From: Salvelinus alpinus
Taxonomy: Eukaryota > Chordata > Actinopteri > Salmoniformes > Salmonidae
Length of the DNA stretch: 64,000 bases
Direction: 5' to 3'
Assembly: GCF_045679555.1 (NCBI RefSeq)
Contig: NC_092094.1
Location: forward strand, 38,103,430 to 38,167,429
The position numbers and the translations under genes were made by a program. Below, piece after piece: positions 45,201-64,000 of this stretch. Positions within the stretch are counted from its first letter, which is position 1. The number at the start of each line of letters is the position of its first letter. The notes beneath the pieces are model-generated. The model worked only from the letters and a program-made list of their open reading frames with translations. It made no database searches and had not been told where the DNA came from.

Positions 45201-48200
45201 ACTTTTTTTTTTTACTTATTTTGTACATAATGCTACCATCTCTTATTAGAACTGCGATTTCTCACCATGAACTGGCAGAATAATTTTTTCGTTTAACGAG
45301 TCCGACGAGCCCGACGTGAATGGTATACTGCTTTCCCAGGAACAGGCCCAGATCCCCGTCATTTGCGTTACGATAAGACGGAGAAAAAGGGTCTGGAGGG
45401 CGGGCTGCCTTCTGAGAATTCGTAGGCAATCGAATAAACCCCCACTGCCTTCCATTCTGCTAGCAAACGTGCAATCTTTGGAAAATAAAATTGATGACAT
45501 ACGCAGCAGATTAAACTACCAACGGGACATTCAAAACTGTAATATCTTATGCTTCACAGAGTCGTGACTGAACGACGACATTATCAACATACTGGTTGAT
45601 TAACGGCTGGTTATACGCTGTATCGGCAGGATAGAACAGCGGCATCTGGTAAGACAAGGGGCGGCGGACTATGTATTTTTGTAAATAACAGCTGGTGCAC
45701 AATATCTAAGGAAGTCTTGAGGTTTTGCTCACCTGAGGTACATAAGCTGTAGACCACACTATTTACCAAGAGAGTTTTCTGTATTCTTCGTAGCTATCTA
45801 CATACCACCACAGACTGAGGCTGGCAGTAAGACCGCACTCAATGAGCTGTATTCCGCCATAAGCAAACAGGAAAATGCTCACCCAGAGGCGGTGCTCCTA
45901 GTGGCCGGGGACTTTAATGCATGGAAACTTAAATAGGTCTAACCAAATTTCCATCAGCATGTTAAATGTGCAACCTGAGGGAAAAAAACTCTGGACCACC
46001 TTTAGTCCACACGCAGAGACGCTTACAAAGCTCGCCCTCCATTTGGCAAATCTGACCATAATTCTATCCTCCTGATTCCTGCTTACAAGCAAAAATTAAA
46101 GCAGGAAGCACCAGTGACTCGATCAGTAAAAAAATGGTCAGATGAAGCAGACGCTAATCTACAGGACTGTTTTGCTTGCACAGACTGGAATATGTTCCCG
46201 GGATTCCTCCATGGCATTGAGGAGCACACCGCATCAGTTATTGGCTTCATCAATAAGTGCATCGATGACGTCATCCCCACAGTGACCGTACGTACATACC
46301 CCAACCAGAAGCCATGGATTACAGGCAACATCCGCACTGAGCTAAAGGCTAGAGCTGCCATAGCCATGAAGTGCTTTGAAAGGCTGGTTATGACTCACAT
46401 CAACACCATTATCCCAGAAACCATAAACGCTCTCCAATTTGCATACAGCCCTAACAGATCCACAGATGATGCAATCTCTATTGCACTCCACACTGCCCTT
46501 TCCCACCTGGAAAAAGAGAACACCTATGTGAGAATACTGTTCATTAACTACAGCTCAGCATTCAACACCATAGTGCCCTCAAAGTTCATCATTAAGCTAT
46601 GGACCCTGGAACTAAACACCTTCTTTTGCAACTGGATCCTGGCCGCCCCCAGGTCGTCCTCAACACAGGGGCCCCTCAGGGGTGTGTGCTCAGTCCCCTC
46701 CTGTACTCCCTGTTCACTCATGACTGCACGGCCAGGCATGACTACAACACCATCATTAAGTTTGCCGATGACACAACAGTGGTAGGTCTGATCAACGACG
46801 AGACAGCATATAGGGAGGAGGTCATGGCCGTGTGGTGCCAGGACAACAACCTCTCCCTCAACGTGATCAAGACTAAGGAGATGATTGTGGACTGCAGGGG
46901 AAAGAGGACCAAGCACACACCCATTCTCGTCGACGGGGCTGTAGTGGAGCAGGTTGAGAGCTTCAAGTTCCTTGGTGTCCACATCACCAACAAACTAACA
47001 TGGTCCAAGCACACCAGGTTATACAGCTGCACCATCAAGAGCATCCTGACTGGTTGCATCACTGCCTGGTATGGCAACTGCTTGGCCTCCGATTGCAAGG
47101 CACTACAGAGGGTAGTGCGTACTGCCCAGTACATCACTGGGGCAAAGCTTTCTGCCATCCAAGACCTCTATACCAGGCGGTGTCAGAGGAAGGCTCTAAA
47201 AAATGCCAAAGACTCCAGCCACCCTAGTCATAGACTGTTCTCTCTGCTACCGCATGGCAAGTGGGACCGGAGGGCCAAGTCTTGGTCCAAGAGGCTTCTA
47301 AACAGCTTCTACCCCCAAGCCATAAGACTACTGAATATCTAATCAAATGGCTACCCAGACTACTTGCATTGCCCTCCGCCCCCTTTTTACACCGCTGCTA
47401 CTCTCTGTTGTTATCATCTATGCATAGTCACTGTAATAACTCTACCTACATGTACATATTACCTCAATTACCTCGACTAACGGGTGCCCCCGCAAATTGA
47501 CTCTGTACCGGTAATCCCCTGTATATAGTCTCACTATTGTTATTTTACTGCTGCTCTTTAATTACTTGCTACTTTTATTTCTTATTCTTATTTGTACTGC
47601 ATTGTTGGTTAGGGGGTCATAAGTAAGCATTTCACTGTGAGATCTACACCTGTTGTATTCGGCGCATGTGACAAATAACATTTGATTTGATTTAGTTATA
47701 ATCTCACAGTAATTAACTTACTTCCTCTACATCTGTGCAGGTGAACGCTAATGATGACCGTGGAGTGGTGTTGGGCCGCTGGGACGGGAAGTATGATGAT
47801 GGGGTGTCGCCCACACGCTGGACCGGCAGTGTGGCCATCCTCAGGCGATGGCGCGAGGCCGGGACACAGAGGGTGCGATACGGACAGTGCTGGGTGTTCT
47901 CAGGTGTAGCCTGCACAGGTGAGGCACACATACCGCGCCCTGACACAGGATGGCTCTCTTTTTTTCAACTACAAATTTCCAACACTCTCTGGCTCTATAT
48001 TTTCTTTAACCTTTCATTAGGCCTCCAGTAATATTCAGCTCTGTAATTCTAGACAGACTATATGCTATTTGCTGATTGGCTCCTTCCGTTCACCCATCCC
48101 ACAGTTCTTCGCTGTCTGGGCATACCTACTCGCCCTGTTACAAACTACTCCTCTGCCCATGACACTGACGGCAACCTGAATGTGGACTATCTGTACAATG

Positions 48201-50044
48201 AGCAGCTGGAGAGTGTGTCTGAAGGCAGGAAGGACATGATCTGGTAAAGCTCAAAAGCTGCATTTCGGTCTCGACAAAGTCAGCACATTCATCCGTTTTC
48301 TTATAGTGGCCTCCCTCACATCAATACTGTAAATGCTTTGTGTGTGTAGGAACTACCATTGCTGGGTGGAGTCCTGGATGGATAGGGAGGATCTTCCTAA
48401 AGGCTATGATGGGTGGCAGGCTCTGGATCCCACCCCACAGGAGAGGAGTGATGGTACGGCCCCACTTGATATTCATGATCAGTCTGTCTCACTAAGGAAA
48501 AGCTCCTTTAAAACTCTGTTATTGGGCTCTTCATAACCTCACTCTTCAAATCACCCCATCCCCCCACTATCGTTCCCTTGTCTCTTAGGGGTGTACTGTT
48601 GTGGGCCCTGTCCAGTCAAGGCGGTGAGGGACGGTGATGTGGGGATGAAGTATGATGCAGCCTTCGTGTTCTCTGAGGTGAACGCAGACCTGGTCACCTG
48701 GATCGTCTACCCAGATGGCCAACGCTCACAGGTTTCCCTCAACCAGAAAACTGTGGGCCGAAACATCAGCACCAAGAGTGTGTATGGAGACTACAGAGAG
48801 GACATCACTAAACATTACAAATACCCTGAAGGTATTCACTTCCTTTCGTTAAGCACAGATAAGCACAAATATTCTCACCTGCTTCAATATTAGCACAGAT
48901 GGGAACCGAACAGAAAGAGTACAGTACCGTTATACACAACAAATACCTCAAGGGAAGGGTGTTACTATATACACACGCATACCGTAAAAACAGACATTTT
49001 ATATAACAGTATGACATCGTCCTTTCTTTCTACCAGGTTCAGTGAAGGAGCGTGAGGTGTATGAGAAGGCAGGACGTCGGATAACGCAGCTGAATGGAGG
49101 ACCAGGGCAGCTGGAGCTGAAGATCAGACACGCCCAGGCCATCCTGGGGACAGACTTTGATGTGATAGTGGAGGTGCACAACGTGGGTGGGGAGGACACC
49201 CCGGCCCAGCTCACTGTGACCTCCAACGCTGTCACCTACAACAGCCTTCACCGGGGGGAGTGCCAGAGGAGGACTGCCAGCCTGACCGTGCCAGCCCAGA
49301 AAGGTGGGCCTCCGCTTGTCACATACACCATATAGGTGCCGTAGGCGAGACGAATCAAGACTCAGAACTGGTGTCAGTCCCTGTGTTAGATTTGTTTTTT
49401 TACTTGCACTGGGTGAGTCTGACCTACAACATCCCTGGGTTTCTTGTATTTTTAGGAACCGAGTAAACAGAGCAAAAAATACCACACCGAAGTGAAAAGA
49501 ATACAATAATACTTTTTCCTCTCATCCCTATTATTCTCACAGCTCATAAGGAAGTGATGCGTCTACGGTACGATCACTATGGGGCTTGTGTGTCTGAGCA
49601 TAACCTGATCAGGGTCACAGCACTGCTCCAGGCCAGCAGCCAGCCCGACATCATTCTGCAAGAGGTCAACATCCCACTAAGCATGCCACAGCTCCATGTC
49701 AAGGTACTAGGCTATACTGTATGTAACTGTAAATAGCTGGTGAATAATTGCTTGATGAATTGCGTGCTACTGTTTGCACTTTACACAATTGTCAAGATTG
49801 GCCATTTCCGGAGGGAAAGCAGTTGAAATATGCTGTAGGGGCTTGTTTTAGATATACTGAAATAATCCTCTCTGATGATGCCTGCACTGTCCATTTTCTT
49901 GCTTCAGGTAGTGGGAGATGCAGTTGTATCTCGGAAATTAATTGCACACATCAGCTTCACCAATCCCCTGCCTATCACCCTGAGAGGGGGAGTGTTCACA
50001 GTGGAGGGGGCAGGTCTGACTGCACCACGGGAGCTCCAAGCACC
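42247..50044 (+). CDS. tgm2: transglutaminase 2-like (protein-glutamine gamma-glutamyltransferase), 3' end not seen
   Basis: Twelve exons: 42247-42262 (ATG), 43290-43460, 43628-43858, 44262-44380, 44944-45072, 47741-47918, 48105-48243, 48350-48453, 48589-48831, 49037-49303, 49543-49703, 49908-50044. Junctions are GT-AG and in phase, 631 codons so far. Calcium-dependent crosslinking enzyme of the TGM2 type: N-terminal beta-sandwich ([20 protein letters not shown]), core with triad Cys272 (YGQCWVF), His331 (NYHCWVESW) and Asp354 ([10 protein letters not shown]), the oxyanion-type Trp236 (LGRWD), and two C-terminal beta-barrels (exons 10-12). The protein starts MADQNG without a signal peptide, so it is probably cytosolic or unconventionally exported. 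About 55 residues of the second barrel are missing; the next exon is not in 50045-50843. Intron 5 carries a LINE. The exact paralogue name is uncertain. Confidence 0.93.
45112..47694 (+). mobile_element. jockey-like LINE in transglutaminase intron 5, internally deleted
   Basis: The 5' region starts near GATGACGCCGGAGAAGAAGG (45120). Then comes the endonuclease part ([19 protein letters not shown] at 45460-45520; [10 protein letters not shown]-like text near 45790). A fusion at about 46350 joins the linker ([10 protein letters not shown]) directly to [17 protein letters not shown] of the RT. RT motifs follow: [29 protein letters not shown], and [11 protein letters not shown] with both catalytic Asp present. 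The 3' tail TGTATTCGGCGCATGTGACA ends in ATTTGATTTGATTTA. Frameshifts at 45566, 46650 and elsewhere disable it. Same family as 35069-36890. Confidence 0.92.
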
Positions 50045-50843
50045 GTAAGTATCTCTGTGTTGTATGTGAGGGGACACATTCTTCATTGACTGTCAGCATG
50101 TTTGCCAATAAGTGTGTTCAGAGAGAATGTTACATCAGTATTACAGCCATGTTATTACTCTAAGTATAGAGGTGCAAAGTGCTATTTAAGCATAGAAGTT
50201 GACTCATCTAAGGTTTTGCTTAAATAGCTATGATTGTGGGTTTATCCATGAGCAATGAGTGAGACATGGCAGAATGAGTTTGAACAATGGTCTACTTACA
50301 ATATGTAGACCTGAAACTCTTTAAAGCCCGGGGCTCTTTAAAGATCCCACACCTCGTGCAGCAGCAGATTTAGGCCAGCAAGGACATACTCTTGCAATGT
50401 GGTCAGACTATAAAGAACAAGATCAGATTTTCTCTCACTCCACCTCCCCCAAAGACAAAGAGAGAGCCAGACATACCCTCCTTTTGCCAGGCCAAAGACG
50501 ACTAACCTACCAGCCCAGCGTGGCTCTCCAGGACCACAAGCCAAATGTTACCACACATAACCTCCAACAGGAGACGCCAATGTAAACATAAGCCATCAGA
50601 CTAAACACAGGATTATTTCTCTGCCCGTCAGTGACGTGAGGCTGGGGTAAATTGAACATTCTTTGAATGGTATTATGTTCAGATTGTGATATATTATTAA
50701 ATCATGATCCAGACTGTTTTGCTAAGAAAGAACCAAACAAAAAACATAATTCTTGCTGGATGAACCTAGCCTACCTCATCTTTTGGTCAGTCATCTCATA
50801 TTGTTCAAGTGTGAAATATTTTTAAACATTCCATGGCACACTG
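50045..50843. other. intron 12 start of the transglutaminase gene, no exon found
   Basis: Starts with the GTAAGT donor at 50045. No frame resembling the last transglutaminase exon was seen. A small near-palindrome, TCTTTAAAG-CCCGGGG-CTCTTTAAAGA, lies at about 50318-50344. Confidence 0.5.
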
Positions 50844-53640
50844 TCATAGCAGCACATAGTGTAGTAGCACATAGCAGCACATACTGTAGAAGCACATAGC
50901 AGCACCTAGTGTAGTAGAACATAGCAGCACATAGTGTAGTAGCACATAGTGTAGTAGCACATAGCAGCACCTAGTGTAGTAGCACATAGTGTAGTAGCAC
51001 ATAGTAACACATACTGTAGTAGCACATAGTGTAGTAGCACATAGTAACACATAGTGTAGTAGCACATAGCAGCACATAGTGTAGTAGCACATAGTAGCAC
51101 ATAGTGTAGTAGCACATAGTAACACATAGTGTAGTAGCACATAGTAGCACATAGTGTAGTAGCACATAGCAGCAAATAGTGTAGTAGCACATAGCAGCAC
51201 ATAGTGTAGTAGCACATAGTAGCACATAGTGTAGTAGCACATAGTGTAGTAGCACATAGCAGCACATACTGTAGTAGCACATAGCAGCACATAGTGTAGT
51301 AGCACATAGCAGCACATAGTGTAGTAGCACATAGCAGCACATACTGTAGTAGCATATAGCAGCACATAGTGTAGTAGCACATAGCAGCACATAGTGTAGT
51401 AGCACATAGTAGCACATAGTGTAGTAGCACATAGCAGCACATAGTGTAGTAGCACATAGTGTAGTAGCACATAGCAGCACATAGTGTAGTAGCACATAGT
51501 AGCACATAGTGTAGTAGCACATAGCAGCACATAGTGTAGTAGCACATAGTGTAGTAGCACATAGCAGCACATAGTGTAGTAGCACATAGTGTAGCAGCAC
51601 ATAGCAGCACATAGTGTAGTAGCACATAGTGTAGTAGCACATAGCAGCACATAGTGTAGTAGCACATAGTGTAGTAGCACATAGTGTAGTAGCACATAGC
51701 AGCACATAGTGTAGTAGCACATAGTGTAGTAGCACATAGTGTAGTAGCACATAGCAGCACATAGTGTAGTAGCACATAGTGTAGTAGCACATAGCAGCAC
51801 ATAGTGTAGTAGCACATAGCAGCACCTAGTGTAGTAGCACATAGTGTATTAGCACATAGCAGCACCTAGTGTAGTAGCACATAGTGTAGTAGCACATAGC
51901 AGCACCTAGTGGAGTAGCACATAGTGTAGTAGCACATAGTAGCACATAGCAGCACATACTGTAGTAGCACATAGCAGCACATACTGTAGTAGCACATAGT
52001 AGCACATAGTGTAGTAGCACATAGCAGCACCTAGTGTAGTAGAACATAGCAGCACATAGTGTAGTAGCACATAGTGTAGTAGCACATAGCAGCACCTAGT
52101 GTAGTAGCACATAGTGTAGTAGCACAAAGTAACACATACTGTAGTAGCACATAGTGTAGTAACACATAGTGTAGTAGCACATAGCAGCACATAGTGTAGT
52201 AGCACATAGCAGCAAATAGTGTAGTAGCACATAGTAGCACATAGTGTAGTAGCACATAGTGTAGTTGCACATAGCAGCACATAGTAGCACATAGCAGCAC
52301 ATAGTGTAGTAGCACATAGTAACACATAGTGTAGTAGCCCATAGCAGCACATAGTAACACATAGCAGCACATAGTGTAGTAGCACATAGCAGCACATAGT
52401 AACACATAGTAGCACATAGCAGCACATAGTGTTGTAGCACATAGCAGCACATAGTGTAGTAGCACATAGCAGCACATAGTGTAGTAGCACATAGTGTAGG
52501 AGCACATAGTGTAGTAGCACATATTAGCACATAGTGTAGTAGCACATAGCAGCACATAATATAGTAGTACATAGCAGCACATAGTGTAGTAGCACATAAC
52601 AGCACATACTGTAGTAGCACATAGTAGCACATAGCAGCACATAGTAGCACATAGCAGCACATAGTAGCACATAGTAGCACGTAATATAGTAGCACATAGC
52701 ATAACATACTGTACTAGCACATAGTAGCACAACGCAGAACATAGTAGTACAGAGCAGCACATACTATAGTAGCACATAGTAACACATACTGTAGTAGCAC
52801 ATAGCAGCACACACTGTAGTAGCACATAGTAACACATAGTGTAGTAGCACATAGCATAACATACTGTAGTAGCACATAACAGCACATACTGTAGTAGCAC
52901 ATAGTAGCACAACGCAGCACATAGTAGCACAGAGCAGCACATACTATAATAGCACATAGTAACACATAGTGTAGTAGCACATAGCAACACATAGTAACAC
53001 ATAGTAGCACATAGCAGCACATAGTAACACATAGCAGCACATCGTGTAGTAGCACATAGCAGCACATAGTAACACATAGTAGCACATAGCAGCACATAGT
53101 GTTGTAGCACATAGCAGCACATAATGTAGTAGCACATAGCAGCACATAGTGTAGTAGCACATAGTGTAGGAGCACATAGTGTAGTAACACATAGCAGCAC
53201 ATAGTGTAGTAGCCCATAGCAGCACATAGTGTACGAGTACATAGCAAGACATAGTAACACATAGTGTAGTTGCACATAGTAGTTCATAGTAACACATAGC
53301 AGCACATAGTGTAGTAGCACATAGCAGCACATAGTAACACATAGTAGCACATAGCAGCACATAGTAACACATAGCAGCACATAGTGTAGTAGCACATAGC
53401 AGCACATAGTAACACATAGTAGCACATAGCAGCACATAATGTAGTAGCACATAGTGGAGCAGCACATAATGTAGTAGCACAAAACAGCACATACTGTAGT
53501 AGCACATAGTAGCACATAATATAGTAGCACACAGCAGCACATAGTGTAGTAGCACATAGTGTAGTAGCACATAGTAGCACATAGTGTAGTAGCACATAGC
53601 AGCACATAATATAGTAGCACATAGCAGCACATACTGTAGT

Positions 53641-53867
53641 CTTCCGGCACAGCCAGAAGAGGACTGGCCACCCCTCATAGCCTGGTTCCTCTCTAAGTTT
53701 CTTCCTAGGTTTTGGCCTTTCTAGGGAGTTTTTCCTAGCCACCGTGCTTCTACACCTGCATTACTAGCTGTTTGGGGTTTTAGGCTGGGTGTCTGTACAG
53801 CACTTCGAGATATTAGCTGATGTACGAAGGGCTATATAAAATAAAATTGATTGATTGATTGATTGAT
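53641..53867 (+). mobile_element. LINE 3' tail captured in the satellite, copy 1
   Basis: 227 bp of non-satellite sequence from CTTCCGGCACAGCCAGAAGA to the (ATTG)n end. Phrases such as GGACTGGCCACCCCTCATAG, GGGAGTTTTTCCTAGCCACC and GATGTACGAAGGGCTATATA are remembered from the 3' region of an abundant fish LINE. The ATTG-repeat tail is typical of such elements. It sits between modules GTAGT and AGTAGCAC. Confidence 0.75.
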
Positions 53868-56800
53868 AGTAGCACATAGTAGCACATACTGTAGTAGCAC
53901 ATAGCAGCACATAATATAGTAGCACATAGCAGCACATACTGTAGTAGCACATAGTAGCACATACTGTAGTAGCACATAGCAGCACATAGTATAACAGCAC
54001 ATACTGTAGTAGCACATAGTAGCACATAGCAGCACATAGCAGCACATAATATAGTAGCACATAGTGTAGTAGCACATAGCAGCACATACTGTAGTAGCAC
54101 ATAGTAGCACAACGCAGCACATAGTGTAGTAGCACATAGTAGCACATAATATAGTAGCACATAGCAGCACATAGTGTAGTAGCACATAATATAGTAGCAC
54201 ATAGCAGCACATACTGTAGTAGCACATAGCAGCACATAGTAGCACATAGCAGCACATAGTAGCACATAGTAGCACATAATATAGTAGCACATAGCATAAC
54301 ATACTATAGCAGCACATAGTAGCACAGAGCAGCACATACTATAGTAGCACATAGTAACACATACTGTAGTAGCACATAGCAGCACACACTGTAGTAGCAC
54401 ATAGTAACACATAGTGTAGTAGCACATAACAGCACATACTGTAGTAGCACATAGTAGTACAACGCAGCACATAGTAGCACAGAGCAGCACATACTATAAT
54501 AGCACATAGTAACACATAGTGTAGTAGCACATAGCAGCACATAGTAACACATAGTAGCACATAGCAGCACATAGTAACACATAGCAGCACATCGTGTAGT
54601 AGCACATAGCAGCACATAGTAACACATAGTAGCACATAGCAGCACATAGTGTTGTAGCACATAGCAGCACATAATGTAGTAGCACATAGCAGCACATAGT
54701 GTAGTAGCACATAGTGTAGGAGCACATAGTGTAGTAACACATAGCAGCACATAGTGTAGTAGCCCATAGCAGCACATAGTGTACGAGCACATAGCAAGAC
54801 ATAGTAACACATAGTGTAGTTGCACATAGTAGTTCATAGTAACACATAGCAGCACATAGTGTAGTAGCACATAGCAGCACATAGTAACACATAGTAGCAC
54901 ATAGCAGCACATAGTAACACATAGCAACACATAGTGTAGTAGCACATAGCAGCACATAGTAACACATAGTAGCACATAGCAGCACATAATGTAGTAGCAC
55001 ATAGTGGAGCAGCACATAATGTAGTAGCACAAAACAGCACATACTATAGTAGCACATAGTAGCACATAGCAGCACATACTGTAGTAGCACATAGTAGCAC
55101 ATAGTGTAGTAGCACATAGTAGCACATAATATAGTAGCACATAGCAGCACATAGTGTAGTAGCACATAGTGTAGTAGCACATAGTGTAGTAGCACATAGC
55201 AGCACATAATATAGTAGCACATAGCAGCACATACTGTAGTAGCACATAGTAGCACATACTGTAGTAGCACATAGCAGCACATAGTATAACAGCACATACT
55301 GTAGTAGCACATAGTAGCACATAGTAGCACATAGCAGCACATAGTGTAGTAGCACATAGCAGCACATACTGTAGTAGCACAACGCAGCACATAGTGCAGT
55401 AGCACATAGTAGCACATAATATAGTAGCACATAGCAGCACATAGTGTAGTAGCACATAGTAGCACATAGCAGCACATAGTAGCACATAGCAGCACATAGT
55501 AGCACATAGTAGCACATAATATAGTAGCACATAGCATAACATACTATAGTAGCACATAGTAGCACAACGCAGCACATAGTAGCACAGAGCAGCACATACT
55601 ATAGTAGCACATAGCAGCACACACTGTAGTAGCACATAGTAACACATAGTGTAGTAGCACATAGCATAACATACTGTAGTAGCACATAACAGCACATACT
55701 GTAGTAGCACATAGTAGCACAACGCAGCACATAGTAGCACAGAGCAGCACATACTATAATAGCACATAGTAACACATACTGTAGTAGCACATAGCAGCAC
55801 ATACTGTAGTAACACATAGTAACACATAGTGTAGTAGCACATAGCAGCACATAGTAACACATAGTAGCACATAGCAGCACATAGTAACACATAGCAGCAC
55901 ATCGTGTAGTAGCACATAGCAGCACATAGTAACACATAGTAGCACATAGCAGCACATAGTGTTGTAGCACATAGCAGCACATAGTATAGCAGCACATAGT
56001 GTAGTAGCACATAGTGTAGGAGCACATAGTGTAGTAACACATAGCAGCACATAGTGTAGTAGCCCATAGCAGCACATAGTGTACGAGCACATAGCAAGAC
56101 ATAGTAACACATAGTATAGCAGCACATAGTAACACATAGTAGCACATAGCAGCACATAGTGTTGTAGCACATAGCAGCACATAGTGTAGTAGCACATAGC
56201 AGCACATAGTGTAGTAGCACATAGTGTAGGAGCACATAGTGTAGTAGCACATATTAGCACATAGTGTAGTAGCACATAGCAGCACATAATATAGTAGTAC
56301 ATAGCAGCACATAGTGTAGTAGCACATAACAGCACATACTGTAGCAGCACATAGTAGCACATAGTAGCACGTAATATAGTAGCACATAGCATAACATACT
56401 GTACTAGCACATAGTAGCACAACGCAGAACATAGTAGCACAGAGCAGCACATACTATAGTAGCACATAGTAACACATACTGTAGTAGCACATAGCAGCAC
56501 ACACTGTAGTAGCACATAGTAACACATAGTGTAGTAGCACATAGCATAACATACTGTAGTAGCACATAACAGCACATACTGTAGTAGCACATAGTAGCAC
56601 AACGCAGCACATAGTAGCACAGAGCAGCACATACTATAATAGCACATAGTAACACATAGTGTAGTAGCACATAGCAACACATAGTAACACATAGTAGCAC
56701 ATAGCAGCACATAGTAACACATAGCAGCACATCGTGTAGTAGCACATAGCAGCACATAGTAACACATAGTAGCACATAGCAGCACATAGTGTTGTAGCAC

Positions 56801-58085
56801 ATAGCAGCACATAATGTAGTAGCACATAGCAGCACATAGTGTAGTAGCACATAGTGTAGGAGCACATAGTGTAGTAACACATAGCAGCACATAGTGTAGT
56901 AGCCCATAGCAGCACATAGTGTACGAGTACATAGCAAGACATAGTAACACATAGTGTAGTTGCACATAGTAGTTCATAGTAACACATAGCAGCACATAGT
57001 GTAGTAGCACATAGCAGCACATAGTAACACATAGTAGCACATAGCAGCACATAGTAACACATAGCAGCACATAGTGTAGTAGCACATAGCAGCACATAGT
57101 AACACATAGTAGCACATAGCAGCACATAATGTAGTAGCACATAGTGGAGCAGCACATAATGTAGTAGCACAAAACAGCACATACTGTAGTAGCACATAGT
57201 AGCACATAATATAGTAGCACATAGCAGCACATACTGTAGTAGCACATAGCAGCACACACTGTAGTAGCACATAGTAACACATAGTGTAGTAGCACATAGC
57301 ATAACATACTGTAGTAGCACATAACAGCACATACTGTAGTAGCACATAGTAGCACAACGCAGCACATAGTAGCACAGAGCAGCACATACTATAATAGCAC
57401 ATAGTAACACATAGTGTAGTAGCACATAGCAACACATAGTAACACATAGTAGCACATAGCAGCACATAGTAACACATAGCAGCACATCGTGTAGTAGCAC
57501 ATAGCAGCACATAGTAACACATAGTAGCACATAGCAGCACATAGTGTTGTAGCACATAGCAGCACATAATGTAGTAGCACATAGCAGCACATAGTGTAGT
57601 AGCACATAGTGTAGGAGCACATAGTGTAGTAACACATAGCAGCACATAGTGTAGTAGCCCATAGCAGCACATAGTGTACGAGTACATAGCAAGACATAGT
57701 AACACATAGTGTAGTTGCACATAGTAGTTCATAGTAACACATAGCAGCACATAGTGTAGTAGCACATAGCAGCACATAGTAACACATAGTAGCACATAGC
57801 AGCACATAGTAACACATAGCAGCACATAGTGTAGTAGCACATAGCAGCACATAGTAACACATAGTAGCACATAGCAGCACATAATGTAGTAGCACATAGT
57901 GGAGCAGCACATAATGTAGTAGCACAAAACAGCACATACTGTAGTAGCACATAGTAGCACATAATATAGTAGCACACAGCAGCACATAGTGTAGTAGCAC
58001 ATAGTGTAGTAGCACATAGTAGCACATAGTGTAGTAGCACATAGCAGCACATAATATAGTAGCACATAGCAGCACATACTGTAGT

Positions 58086-58312
58086 CTTCCGGCACAGCCA
58101 GAAGAGGACTGGCCACCCCTCATAGCCTGGTTCCTCTCTAAGTTTCTTCCTAGGTTTTGGCCTTTCTAGGGAGTTTTTCCTAGCCACCGTGCTTCTACAC
58201 CTGCATTACTAGCTGTTTGGGGTTTTAGGCTGGGTGTCTGTACAGCACTTCGAGATATTAGCTGATGTACGAAGGGCTATATAAAATAAAATTGATTGAT
58301 TGATTGATTGAT
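58086..58312 (+). mobile_element. LINE 3' tail captured in the satellite, copy 2
   Basis: By eye identical to 53641-53867 over its whole 227 bp, including the tail length, and exactly 4445 bp downstream with the same flanking satellite modules. It was therefore copied together with the surrounding array rather than inserted independently. Confidence 0.85.
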
Positions 58313-61300
58313 AGTAGCACATAGTAGCACATACTGTAGTAGCACATAGCAGCACATAATATAGTAGCACATAGCAGCACATACTGTAGTAGCACATAGT
58401 AGCACATACTGTAGTAGCACATAGCAGCACATAGTATAACAGCACATACTGTAGTAGCACATAGTAGCACATAGCAGCACATAGCAGCACATAATATAGT
58501 AGCACATAGTGTAGTAGCACATAGCAGCACATACTGTAGTAGCACATAGTAGCACAACGCAGCACATAGTGTAGTAGCACATAGTAGCACATAATATAGT
58601 AGCACATAGCAGCACATAGTGTAGTAGCACATAATATAGTAGCACATAGCAGCACATACTGTAGTAGCACATAGCAGCACATAGTAGCACATAGCAGCAC
58701 ATAGTAGCACATAGTAGCACATAATATAGTAGCACATAGCATAACATACTATAGCAGCACATAGTAGCACAGAGCAGCACATACTATAGTAGCACATAGT
58801 AACACATACTGTAGTAGCACATAGCAGCACACACTGTAGTAGCACATAGTAACACATAGTGTAGTAGCACATAACAGCACATACTGTAGTAGCACATAGT
58901 AGTACAACGCAGCACATAGTAGCACAGAGCAGCACATACTATAATAGCACATAGTAACACATAGTGTAGTAGCACATAGCAGCACATAGTAACACATAGT
59001 AGCACATAGCAGCACATAGTAACACATAGCAGCACATCGTGTAGTAGCACATAGCAGCACATAGTAACACATAGTAGCACATAGCAGCACATAGTGTTGT
59101 AGCACATAGCAGCACATAATGTAGTAGCACATAGCAGCACATAGTGTAGTAGCACATAGTGTAGGAGCACATAGTGTAGTAACACATAGCAGCACATAGT
59201 GTAGTAGCCCATAGCAGCACATAGTGTACGAGCACATAGCAAGACATAGTAACACATAGTGTAGTTGCACATAGTAGTTCATAGTAACACATAGCAGCAC
59301 ATAGTGTAGTAGCACATAGCAGCACATAGTAACACATAGTAGCACATAGCAGCACATAGTAACACATAGCAACACATAGTGTAGTAGCACATAGCAGCAC
59401 ATAGTAACACATAGTAGCACATAGCAGCACATAATGTAGTAGCACATAGTGGAGCAGCACATAATGTAGTAGCACAAAACAGCACATACTATAGTAGCAC
59501 ATAGTAGCACATAGCAGCACATACTGTAGTAGCACATAGTAGCACATAGTGTAGTAGCACATAGTAGCACATAATATAGTAGCACATAGCAGCACATAGT
59601 GTAGTAGCACATAGTGTAGTAGCACATAGTGTAGTAGCACATAGCAGCACATAATATAGTAGCACATAGCAGCACATACTGTAGTAGCACATAGTAGCAC
59701 ATACTGTAGTAGCACATAGCAGCACATAGTATAACAGCACATACTGTAGTAGCACATAGTAGCACATAGTAGCACATAGCAGCACATAGTGTAGTAGCAC
59801 ATAGCAGCACATACTGTAGTAGCACATAGTAGCACAACGCAGCACATAGTGCAGTAGCACATAGTAGCACATAATATAGTAGCACATAGCAGCACATAGT
59901 GTAGTAGCACATAGTAGCACATAGCAGCACATAGTAGCACATAGCAGCACATAGTAGCACATAGTAGCACATAATATAGTAGCACATAGCATAACATACT
60001 ATAGTAGCACATAGTAGCACAACGCAGCACATAGTAGCACAGAGCAGCACATACTATAGTAGCACATAGCAGCACACACTGTAGTAGCACATAGTAACAC
60101 ATAGTGTAGTAGCACATAGCATAACATACTGTAGTAGCACATAACAGCACATACTGTAGTAGCACATAGTAGCACAACGCAGCACATAGTAGCACAGAGC
60201 AGCACATACTATAATAGCACATAGTAACACATACTGTAGTAGCACATAGCAGCACATACTGTAGTAACACATAGTAACACATAGTGTAGTAGCACATAGC
60301 AGCACATAGTAACACATAGTAGCACATAGCAGCACATAGTAACACATAGCAGCACATCGTGTAGTAGCACATAGCAGCACATAGTAACACATAGTAGCAC
60401 ATAGCAGCACATAGTGTTGTAGCACATAGCAGCACATAGTATAGCAGCACATAGTGTAGTAGCACATAGTGTAGGAGCACATAGTGTAGTAACACATAGC
60501 AGCACATAGTGTAGTAGCCCATAGCAGCACATAGTGTACGAGCACATAGCAAGACATAGTAACACATAGTGTAGTAGCACATAGCAGCACATAGTAACAC
60601 ATAGTAGCACATAGCAGCACATAGTGTTGTAGCACATAGCAGCACATAGTGTAGTAGCACATAGCAGCACATAGTGTAGTAGCACATAGTGTAGGAGCAC
60701 ATAGTGTAGTAGCACATATTAGCACATAGTGTAGTAGCACATAGCAGCACATAATATAGTAGTACATAGCAGCACATAGTGTAGTAGCACATAACAGCAC
60801 ATACTGTAGCAGCACATAGTAGCACATAGTAGCACGTAATATAGTAGCACATAGCATAACATACTGTACTAGCACATAGTAGCACAACGCAGAACATAGT
60901 AGCACAGAGCAGCACATACTATAGTAGCACATAGTAACACATACTGTAGTAGCACATAGCAGCACACACTGTAGTAGCACATAGTAACACATAGTGTAGT
61001 AGCACATAGCATAACATACTGTAGTAGCACATAACAGCACATACTGTAGTAGCACATAGTAGCACAACGCAGCACATAGTAGCACAGAGCAGCACATACT
61101 ATAATAGCACATAGTAACACATAGTGTAGTAGCACATAGCAACACATAGTAACACATAGTAGCACATAGCAGCACATAGTAACACATAGCAGCACATCGT
61201 GTAGTAGCACATAGCAGCACATAGTAACACATAGTAGCACATAGCAGCACATAGTGTTGTAGCACATAGCAGCACATAATGTAGTAGCACATAGCAGCAC

Positions 61301-64000
61301 ATAGTGTAGTAGCACATAGTGTAGGAGCACATAGTGTAGTAACACATAGCAGCACATAGTGTAGTAGCCCATAGCAGCACATAGTGTACGAGTACATAGC
61401 AAGACATAGTAACACATAGTGTAGTTGCACATAGTAGTTCATAGTAACACATAGCAGCACATAGTGTAGTAGCACATAGCAGCACATAGTAACACATAGT
61501 AGCACATAGCAGCACATAGTAACACATAGCAGCACATAGTGTAGTAGCACATAGCAGCACATAGTAACACATAGTAGCACATAGCAGCACATAATGTAGT
61601 AGCACATAGTGGAGCAGCACATAATGTAGTAGCACAAAACAGCACATACTGTAGTAGCACATAGTAGCACATAATATAGTAGCACATAGCAGCACATACT
61701 GTAGTAGCACATAGTAGCACATACTGTAGTAGCACATAGCAGCACATACTGTAGTAGCACATAGTGTACTAGCACATAGTAGCACATAATATAGTAGCAC
61801 ACAGCAGCACATAGTGTAGTAGCACATAGTGTAGTAGCACATAGTAGCACATAGTGTAGTAGCACATAGCAGCACATAATATAGTAGCACATAGCAGCAC
61901 ATACTGTAGTAGCACATAGTAGCACATACTGTAGTAGCACATAGCAGCACATAGTATAACAGCACATACTGTAGTAGCACATAGTAGCACATAGCAGCAC
62001 ATAGTAGCACATAGCAGCACATAATATAGTAGCACATAGTGTAGTAGCACATAGCAGCACATACTGTAGTAGCACATAGTAGCACAACGCAGCACATAGT
62101 TCAGTAGCACATAGTAGCACATAATATAGTAGCACATAGCAGCACATAGTGTAGTAGCACATAATATAGTAGCACATAGCAGCACATACTGTAGTAGCAC
62201 ATAGCAGCACATAGTAGCACATAGCAGCACATAGTAGCACATAGTAGCACATAATATAGTAGCACATAGCATAACATACTATAGTAGCACATAGTAGCAC
62301 AACGCAGCACATAGTAGCACAGAGCAGCACATACTATAGTAGCACATAGTAACACATACTGTAGTAGCACATAGCAGCACACACTGTAGTAGCACATAGT
62401 AACACATAGTGTAGTAGCACATAGCATAACATACTGTAGTAGCACATAGCAGCACATAGTAGCACATAGCAGCACATAGTAGCACATAGTAGCACATAAT
62501 ATAGTAGCACATAGCATAACATACTATAGTAGCACATAGTAGCACAACGCAGCACATAGTAGCACAGAGCAGCACATAATGTAGTAGCACATAGTGGAGC
62601 AGCACATAATGTAGTAGCACAAAACAGCACATACTATAGTAGCACATAGTAGCACATAGCAGCACATACTGTAGTAGCACATAGTAGCACATAGTGTAGT
62701 AGCACATAGTAGCACATAATATAGTAGCACATAGCAGCACATAGTGTAGTAGCACATAGTGTAGTAGCACATAGTGTAGTAGCACATAGCAGCACATAAT
62801 ATAGTAGCACATAGCAGCACATACTGTAGTAGCACATAGTAGCACATACTGTAGTAGCACATAGCAGCACATAGTATAACAGCACATACTGTAGTAGCAC
62901 ATAGTAGCACATAGTAGCACATAGCAGCACATAGTGTAGTAGCACATAGCAGCACATACTGTAGTAGCACATAGTAGCACAACGCAGCACATAGTGCAGT
63001 AGCACATAGTAGCACATAATATAGTAGCACATAGCAGCACATAGTGTAGTAGCACATAGTAGCACATAGCAGCACATAGTAGCACATAGCAGCACATAGT
63101 AGCACATAGTAGCACATAATATAGTAGCACATAGCATAACATACTATAGTAGCACATAGTAGCACAACGCAGCACATAGTAGCACAGAGCAGCACATACT
63201 ATAGTAGCACATAGTAACACATACTGTAGTAGCACATAGCAGCACACACTGTAGTAGCACATAGTAACACATAGTGTAGTAGCACATAGCATAACATACT
63301 GTAGTAGCACATAACAGCACATACTGTAGTATCACATAGTAGTACAACGCAGCACATAGTAGCACAGAGCAGCACATACTATAATAGCACATAGTAACAC
63401 ATAGTAGCACATAGCAGCACATAGTAACACATAGCAGCACATCGTGTAGTAGCACATAGCAGCACATAGTAACACATAGTAGCACATAGCAGCACATAGT
63501 GTTGTAGCACATAGCAGCACATAATGTAGTAGCACATAGCAGCACATAGTGTAGTAGCACATAGTGTAGGAGCACATAGTGTAGTAACACATAGCAGCAC
63601 ATAGTGTAGTAGCCCATAGCAGCACATAGTGTACGAGCACATAGCAAGACATAGTAACACATAGTGTAGTTGCACATAGTAGTTCATAGTAACACATAGC
63701 AGCACATAGTGTAGTAGCACATAGCAGCACATAGTAACACATAGTAGCACATAGCAGCACATAGTAACACATAGCAGCACATAGTGTAGTAGCACATAGC
63801 AGCACATAGTAACACATAGTAGCACATAGCAGCACATAATGTAGTAGCACATAGTGGAGCAGCACATAATGTAGTAGCACAAAACAGCACATACTATAGT
63901 AGCACATAGTAGCACATAGCAGCACATACTGTAGTAGCACATAGTAGCACATAGTGTAGTAGCACATAGTAGCACATAATATAGTAGCACATAGCAGCAC

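Follow-up and report, generated by a model that had tools for sequence, protein, structure and literature searches.

The analysed stretch is a 64,000-nucleotide piece of the Salvelinus alpinus genome (NC_092094.1, positions 38,103,430 to 38,167,429, hereafter the window), followed here into the chromosome's next 10 kb (L010, where L010:2005 is 66,005 in window-extended coordinates). It carries a transglutaminase gene whose predicted last intron contains, on the sense strand, a long array of short tandem repeats. In the present study, the extent, structure and origin of this array were analysed. It is a single-locus minisatellite with 10- and 15-bp units, probably non-coding and of the variable number tandem repeat (VNTR) type, as seen in one assembly. 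The features of the locus are collected in Table 1.

Table 1. Features of the transglutaminase locus and of the repeat array (window coordinates unless L010 is given)
Feature	Position	Strand	Basis
Open frame with exon encoding YGQCWVF, host transglutaminase gene	47717..48028	+	phmmer against PDB, transglutaminase 2, 5.9e-26
Predicted penultimate transglutaminase exon, gtaag donor after it	49908..50044	+	splice signals; joined to last exon
Predicted last transglutaminase intron, about 19 kb, ending L010:5082	50045..64000 (window part)	+	splice signals, joined domain
Minisatellite array, window part	50845..64000	+	Tandem Repeats Finder (TRF), module tiling, extension into L010, no phase switch
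Left copy of the putative ancestral seed, CATAGCAGCACATAGT, last base changed	50845..50860	+	alignment with C15 intron copy
Right copy of the putative ancestral seed, CATAGCAGCACATTGT, two bases changed	L010:1995-2010 (beyond window)	+	alignment with C15 intron copy
4.45-kb higher-order block, first copy	52786..57230	+	diagonals of shift 4445, 4455, 4465
4.45-kb higher-order block, second copy	57,231 to about 61,710	+	abuts first copy
Interspersed-repeat insert, copy 1, 225 bp, (TTGA)n tail	53641..53865	+	sequence and phase
Interspersed-repeat insert, copy 2, identical	58086..58310	+	0 differences over 300 bp; shift 4445, 2,595 bp at 100%

Results

The identity of the host gene was taken from the PDB comparison and from the joined last two exons, because single transglutaminase frames fell below the Pfam cut-off (four of ten scanned open frames had matches, and the two transglutaminase exons each stayed below it alone). 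The YGQCWVF word presumably holds the catalytic cysteine. The last exon begins at L010:5083, with a cag acceptor before it; joined in frame with the penultimate exon, it yields the C-terminal domain of a transglutaminase (PF00927, 52.2 bits; PDB 1g0d, which we take to be the red sea bream enzyme, 2.1e-29).

The array starts at 50,845 and runs 2.0 kb beyond the end of the window, to about L010:2005, for a total length of 15.16 kb. The end at 64,000 given in the original prediction is not borne out, since the array reaches about 66,005. All 1,000 AGCAC words in the array start at position 1 modulo 5, and the out-of-phase AGCAC words between 50,000 and 66,200 number three, one in the left flank and one in each of two identical 225-bp retroposon inserts. 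Out-of-phase occurrences of the other core words in the array (13 of 344 ATAGC, 15 of 354 GTAGT and 1 of 645 ATAGT) were taken, as a group rather than each by individual inspection, to span module joints, because the fixed tiling stays unbroken. Over 14,710 bp, with the two inserts excluded, the 1,099 ACATA words showed no phase switch. Tiling in 5-bp steps from 50,846, again without the inserts, gave 2,943 modules of 40 kinds, every one of them within two substitutions of AGCAC, ATAGT, ATAGC or GTAGT (2,314 identical to a core word, 541 with one substitution and 88 with two). The mean identity over lags 1-500 in the window part was 0.51 at multiples of five, and 0.11, 0.32, 0.32 and 0.11 at the other residues. 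The strict 5-bp register that had been proposed for the array is confirmed. The six marker spacings quoted in its support (1550, 2140, 755, 1550, 2160 and 2245) could each be recovered as a gap-free diagonal, 505 to 745 bp long and with 99.4 to 100% identity, and they are shifts between paralogous blocks. In addition, no insertion or deletion (indel) out of the 5-bp register was seen in the array, in agreement with the proposal that it varies through module substitution and through the gain or loss of modules.

The A[GA]CAC words lie 10 bp apart in 628 cases and 15 bp apart in 436, and these are the working units of the array. The 10-bp unit is AGCAC ATAGT or AGCAC ATAGC and the 15-bp unit is AGCAC ATAGT GTAGT, with variants of both. 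The boundary of the module itself is a convention, since a tiling cut shifted one base later has nearly equal entropy.

A second copy of the gene region, with about 80% identity, was found on C15; like the size of the genome, it agrees with a salmonid source. It aligned with the left flank of the array in four pieces at 78 to 84%, the last of which stopped 28 bp before the array, and from the right array edge onward in pieces at 69 to 84%. At the aligned site C15 holds no such array, and reads CATAGCAGCAC, a 907-bp insert and ATAGCCACAACT. TRF gave four short rows, none of them of the array's repeat, in the fetched C15 stretch (L026), outside which lies about 2.2 kb of the intron, 28,750,001 to about 28,752,159. 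The 907-bp insert starts with TAGGGTTGGG and ends in its inverse with one difference (9 of 10 bases alike); after it C15 reads AGCAGCACATAGCCACAACT, and AGCAGCAC, which occurs twice, forms a target duplication of 8 bp, of the kind that hAT transposons produce. This hAT-like element (C15:28,747,896-28,748,802) lies exactly in the seed described below.

Without the insert the C15 site reads CATAGCAGCACATAGCCACAACT, and the word across the insertion is CATAGCAGCACATAGC, a 16-letter seed with a 6-bp direct repeat at 10-bp spacing. Its structure is CATAGC-AGCA-CATAGC, which can also be written ATAGC-AGCAC-ATAGC. The seed is kept at both edges of the array, where the left edge reads CATAGCAGCACATAGT with one changed base and the right edge reads CATAGCAGCACATTGTCACAACT with two. 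Up to 66,005, the 39 module types were linked to ATAGC and AGCAC by 37 one-base steps and no two-base step was required; this is a minimum network, drawn without a random-set control, rather than proven descent. We infer that the C15 copy shows the ancestral, unexpanded state, and the whole array seems to have grown from the 16-letter word.

The array was also placed in the 2.37-Gb genome. The exact 24-mer AGCACATAGTGTAGTAGCACATAG has 115 occurrences genome-wide and 115 were counted in the array; 100 of the 115 places were located, each within it. The seed dimer occurs twice in the genome, both times in the array. A classical satellite forms long arrays at many loci, usually heterochromatic, and here a single intronic locus was found; the term "satellite" in the original prediction is accordingly not supported. 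The units are longer than those of a microsatellite, and the length, set against a minisatellite range of 0.5 kb to several kb, exceeds the usual one given in PMC2820488. Six 15- to 16-mers of the array had no match in the literature searched, which is a weak test, and the array was not named in the titles and abstract openings listed for salmonid satellites, for transglutaminase with minisatellite or for duplicate-gene minisatellites.

Much of the register has been inherited through copying, because 9,510 of 15,165 bp (about 63%) is a near-identical later copy (98-100%) of earlier array. The largest growth step is a tandem duplication of 4,445 to 4,465 bp, with no mismatch along diagonals of 2,595 bp (shift 4445), 740 bp (4455) and 1,130 bp (4465), and more nested copies are present at 98 to 99.9% identity. 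The second copy of the 225-bp insert was carried along by the 4,445-bp duplication, which the entry of the insert predates. A genome search with the insert gave 40 scored matches from 418 candidates, and 38 of the 40 are outside the array, the best of these at 98%. The array register resumes in phase after the insert because the insert is 225 bp long; by chance, one insert in five would have a length divisible by five.

The lack of off-register indels was then compared with other DNA. Aligned over 853 columns in five pieces, from the last intron and the last exon with 3' flank, the two gene copies show 105 substitutions and 24 gaps, of which 23 are not multiples of five. At this rate, 8.1 off-register indels are predicted for the array's minimum of 37 substitutions against 0 observed (P about 3e-4), and about 9 are predicted when only the four pieces from the intron are used, in which there are 57 substitutions and all 14 gaps are off-register. 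The 223 core-word differences in the non-redundant part of the array would make P far smaller, but this count includes copies. Another 31 arrays served as controls; they lie in the window, in the 50 kb that follow it and in 11 loci retrieved for their resemblance to the array (unit of at least 5 bp, at least 6 copies and at least 150 bp; the best-scoring of overlapping rows, with the target row skipped). Pooled, they have 179 off-register indels to 541 substitutions (distinct ones in both cases), from which 12.2 are predicted for the array; a single consensus and the full period were the reference in scoring the controls, and the 5-bp module in scoring the array, so that the two are not strictly comparable. 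Five of the 31 controls, the longest of 2.83 kb, have no phase switch and seven have no off-register indel type, while all four longer than 2.83 kb have phase switches.

Bases in runs of at least three make up 0.5% of the array and 19% of the flank (30,001-50,843), and lag-1 identity is 0.03 against 0.26. Since the array is almost without base runs, the usual sites of small indels are removed, and this scarcity explains the strictness of the register in part, not wholly.

Discussion

We consider, at a rough probability of 0.8, that the array is a non-coding single-locus minisatellite in the last transglutaminase intron, which grew from a CATAGC-AGCA-CATAGC seed by slipped-strand mispairing and then by copying of modules and blocks. 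According to this proposal, the ancestral intron would have carried the seed as it is read from the second gene copy, and slipped-strand mispairing between the two CATAGC words would have duplicated the decamer ATAGCAGCAC. A 5-bp step may next have given the GTAGT module and the 15-bp unit, and point substitutions the remaining module types. Later changes of length would have been the copying or loss of whole modules and of larger blocks, up to 4.45 kb; the duplications themselves are observed, and slippage, unequal exchange or conversion may lie behind them. The perfect register could be due partly to the near absence of bases in runs, which would leave the commonest small indels without a site, partly to the behaviour of misaligned strands, whose best matches at shifts of at least 10 bp would fall on multiples of five, and partly to most of the array being a recent copy.

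Two models of minisatellite birth are given in PMC3389668 and PMC2820488, namely slippage at noncontiguous repeats and duplication between direct repeats of 5-10 bp, and the array fits a slipped-strand birth. Short direct repeats around a spacer, as the noncontiguous-repeat model supposes for the unexpanded ancestor, are present in the C15 copy with its insert left out, if that copy represents the ancestral state. An incomplete terminal unit was also found, the right edge ending in a half-unit (a changed ATTGT after AGCAC), but this evidence is weak because 10- and 15-bp units are mixed. Hairpin-driven expansion, as a route to the slippage, gained no support, since one 241-nucleotide piece of the array folds worse than 200 of 200 shuffles.

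Several points weigh against the proposed history. Identity at lag 3 (0.39) is higher than at lag 5 (0.33), so that short-range self-similarity is present in the array, which makes the proposal slightly less probable. Within this one genome, loss of an array from the C15 copy is a possible alternative to its birth on C9, the chromosome of the array. Furthermore, run-poor arrays elsewhere in the genome do have off-register indels (8 types in the 23-bp array of L015, 8 in the 15-bp array of L018 and 47 in L019), and the identical 4.45-kb copies could partly be an artefact of assembly.

The last point, taken further, would make much of the array length an artefact, as could happen if two haplotypes had been assembled one behind the other. 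The abutting 4.45-kb copies, with no substitution and two 10-bp length changes between them, do differ as two alleles might, but nested copies at lower identity exist besides this pair, the array contains no N, and neither the seed nor the register depends on the duplication, so that we hold this explanation to be improbable. A register that is actively maintained, with off-register variants preferentially removed (for instance by repair or conversion between misaligned copies only in register), is unlikely. The at least 37 substitutions of the minimum network without one off-register indel, the prediction from the pooled controls and the phase switches in all of the longest control arrays argue for it; but the comparison rates derive partly from run-rich DNA, some controls are as free of phase switches or off-register types, with 7 per 77, as in one zinc-finger-like array, P is only 0.03, and the difference in scoring applies here too. 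It is very improbable that the array is one member of a genome-wide satellite family, whether centromeric, subtelomeric or dispersed. With a 201-bp piece of it as query, 11 neighbourhoods gave 32 matches of 67 to 77% identity in a search that skips very common words, missed the window's own array and is not exhaustive. All 11 neighbourhoods were fetched, and their tandem repeats use other units (3, 8, 10, 15, 19, 23, 28 and 55 bp), only a 101-bp array at C2:107.69 Mb having a similar decamer. The genome has all of its exact 24-mers and its two seed dimers inside the array, which refutes membership as far as exact 24-mers go, and its position in the last intron means that it is not a centromeric or subtelomeric satellite; membership in a dispersed family was therefore rejected.

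Functional explanations were also considered. Overlapping open reading frames of up to 758 codons run through the array on the minus strand (50844-64000), where a repetitive protein might be encoded. However, none of the four core words has a stop codon in its complement, so the open frames follow from the alphabet; length changes in 5- and 10-bp steps would break a reading frame, and as many as three frames lie open over the same stretch. Coding on the opposite strand was thus rejected as next to impossible, the frames being a by-product of the stop-free complements. In the RNA, the Musashi-1 consensus (G/A)U1-3AGU, as given in PMC12342889, has 998 matches on the sense strand of the array, whereas 100 mononucleotide shuffles average 34 and the opposite strand has 37; the density is 68 per kb in the array and 2.5 per kb in the flank. 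The matches, about 1,000 per pre-mRNA, are supplied by the modules AUAGU and GUAGU. A strict register could conceivably hold a regularly spaced array of predicted Musashi sites, which would titrate Musashi-type proteins in the nucleus or influence splicing of the last transglutaminase exon, and the folded 241-nucleotide piece, taken as RNA, is less structured than every shuffle tested (200 of 200). Amplification of any seed mutating to ATAGT produces this bias as well, and because of this we give such a role very little credence.

With slippage from the seed as the favoured origin, the array is of an ordinary known kind, and its unusually complete birth record is what stands out. Human minisatellites of the MS32 type have interspersed variant units, as does this array. 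The locus behind the noncontiguous-repeat model (PMC3389668 and PMC2820488), also from a fish, is alike in three respects: its unexpanded sequence has a spacer within a short direct repeat, its first unit is made of repeat plus spacer, and its terminal unit is incomplete. It differs in that, for the present array, another copy of the gene within one genome supplies the unexpanded state, and growth has reached 15 kb, higher-order blocks included. VNTR6-1 of TERT, as described in PMC11830802, is likewise a single locus with tandem units inside an intron, but has one unit of 38 bp, whereas 10- and 15-bp units share a 5-bp register here, in one assembly. Human satellites 2 and 3, with the ancestral pentamer CATTC, are comparable as arrays of diverged pentamer-based modules, as described in PMC4022460; they form multi-megabase heterochromatic regions, in contrast to one 15-kb intronic locus, and five is here the common divisor of 10 and 15, not a founding unit like CATTC.

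The start of a minisatellite is hard to study because its ancestral state is usually lost. The second intron copy appears to keep that state, so that birth (the 16-bp seed), diversification (at least 37 one-base steps), nested block growth and the absence of off-register indels would all be readable at one locus. Genome duplication of the salmonid type may offer a general route to more such expanded and unexpanded pairs. In addition, one gene copy with a 15-kb repeat block in its last intron and another without it at the aligned site provide a natural contrast for splicing and expression.

Minor observations were made in the surrounding and fetched DNA. Downstream of the transglutaminase gene, open frames match two domains, RNase PH and alanyl-tRNA synthetase, presumably of the genes EXOSC6 and AARS1. 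The 101-bp array on C2 (L017:4697-4797) repeats the decamer AGCACATA(T/G)T, which is almost that of the intronic array and may have started independently; the text adjoining this C2 array resembles what we take to be a Tc1-type end. A 2.7-kb array of the 8-bp unit ACTATACT at C2:116.99 Mb (L023:4686-7427) keeps a register nearly as strict as that of the intronic array, with 2 phase switches and, by alignment, 5 distinct off-register indel types. In the 5-kb array at C17:51.40 Mb (L019:681-5744), the five strongest lags are 21, 55, 13, 34 and 8, all of them Fibonacci numbers. Its TACTA words are most often 5, 8 or 13 bp apart, and its building blocks look like two tiles, one of 5 bp and one of 8 bp.

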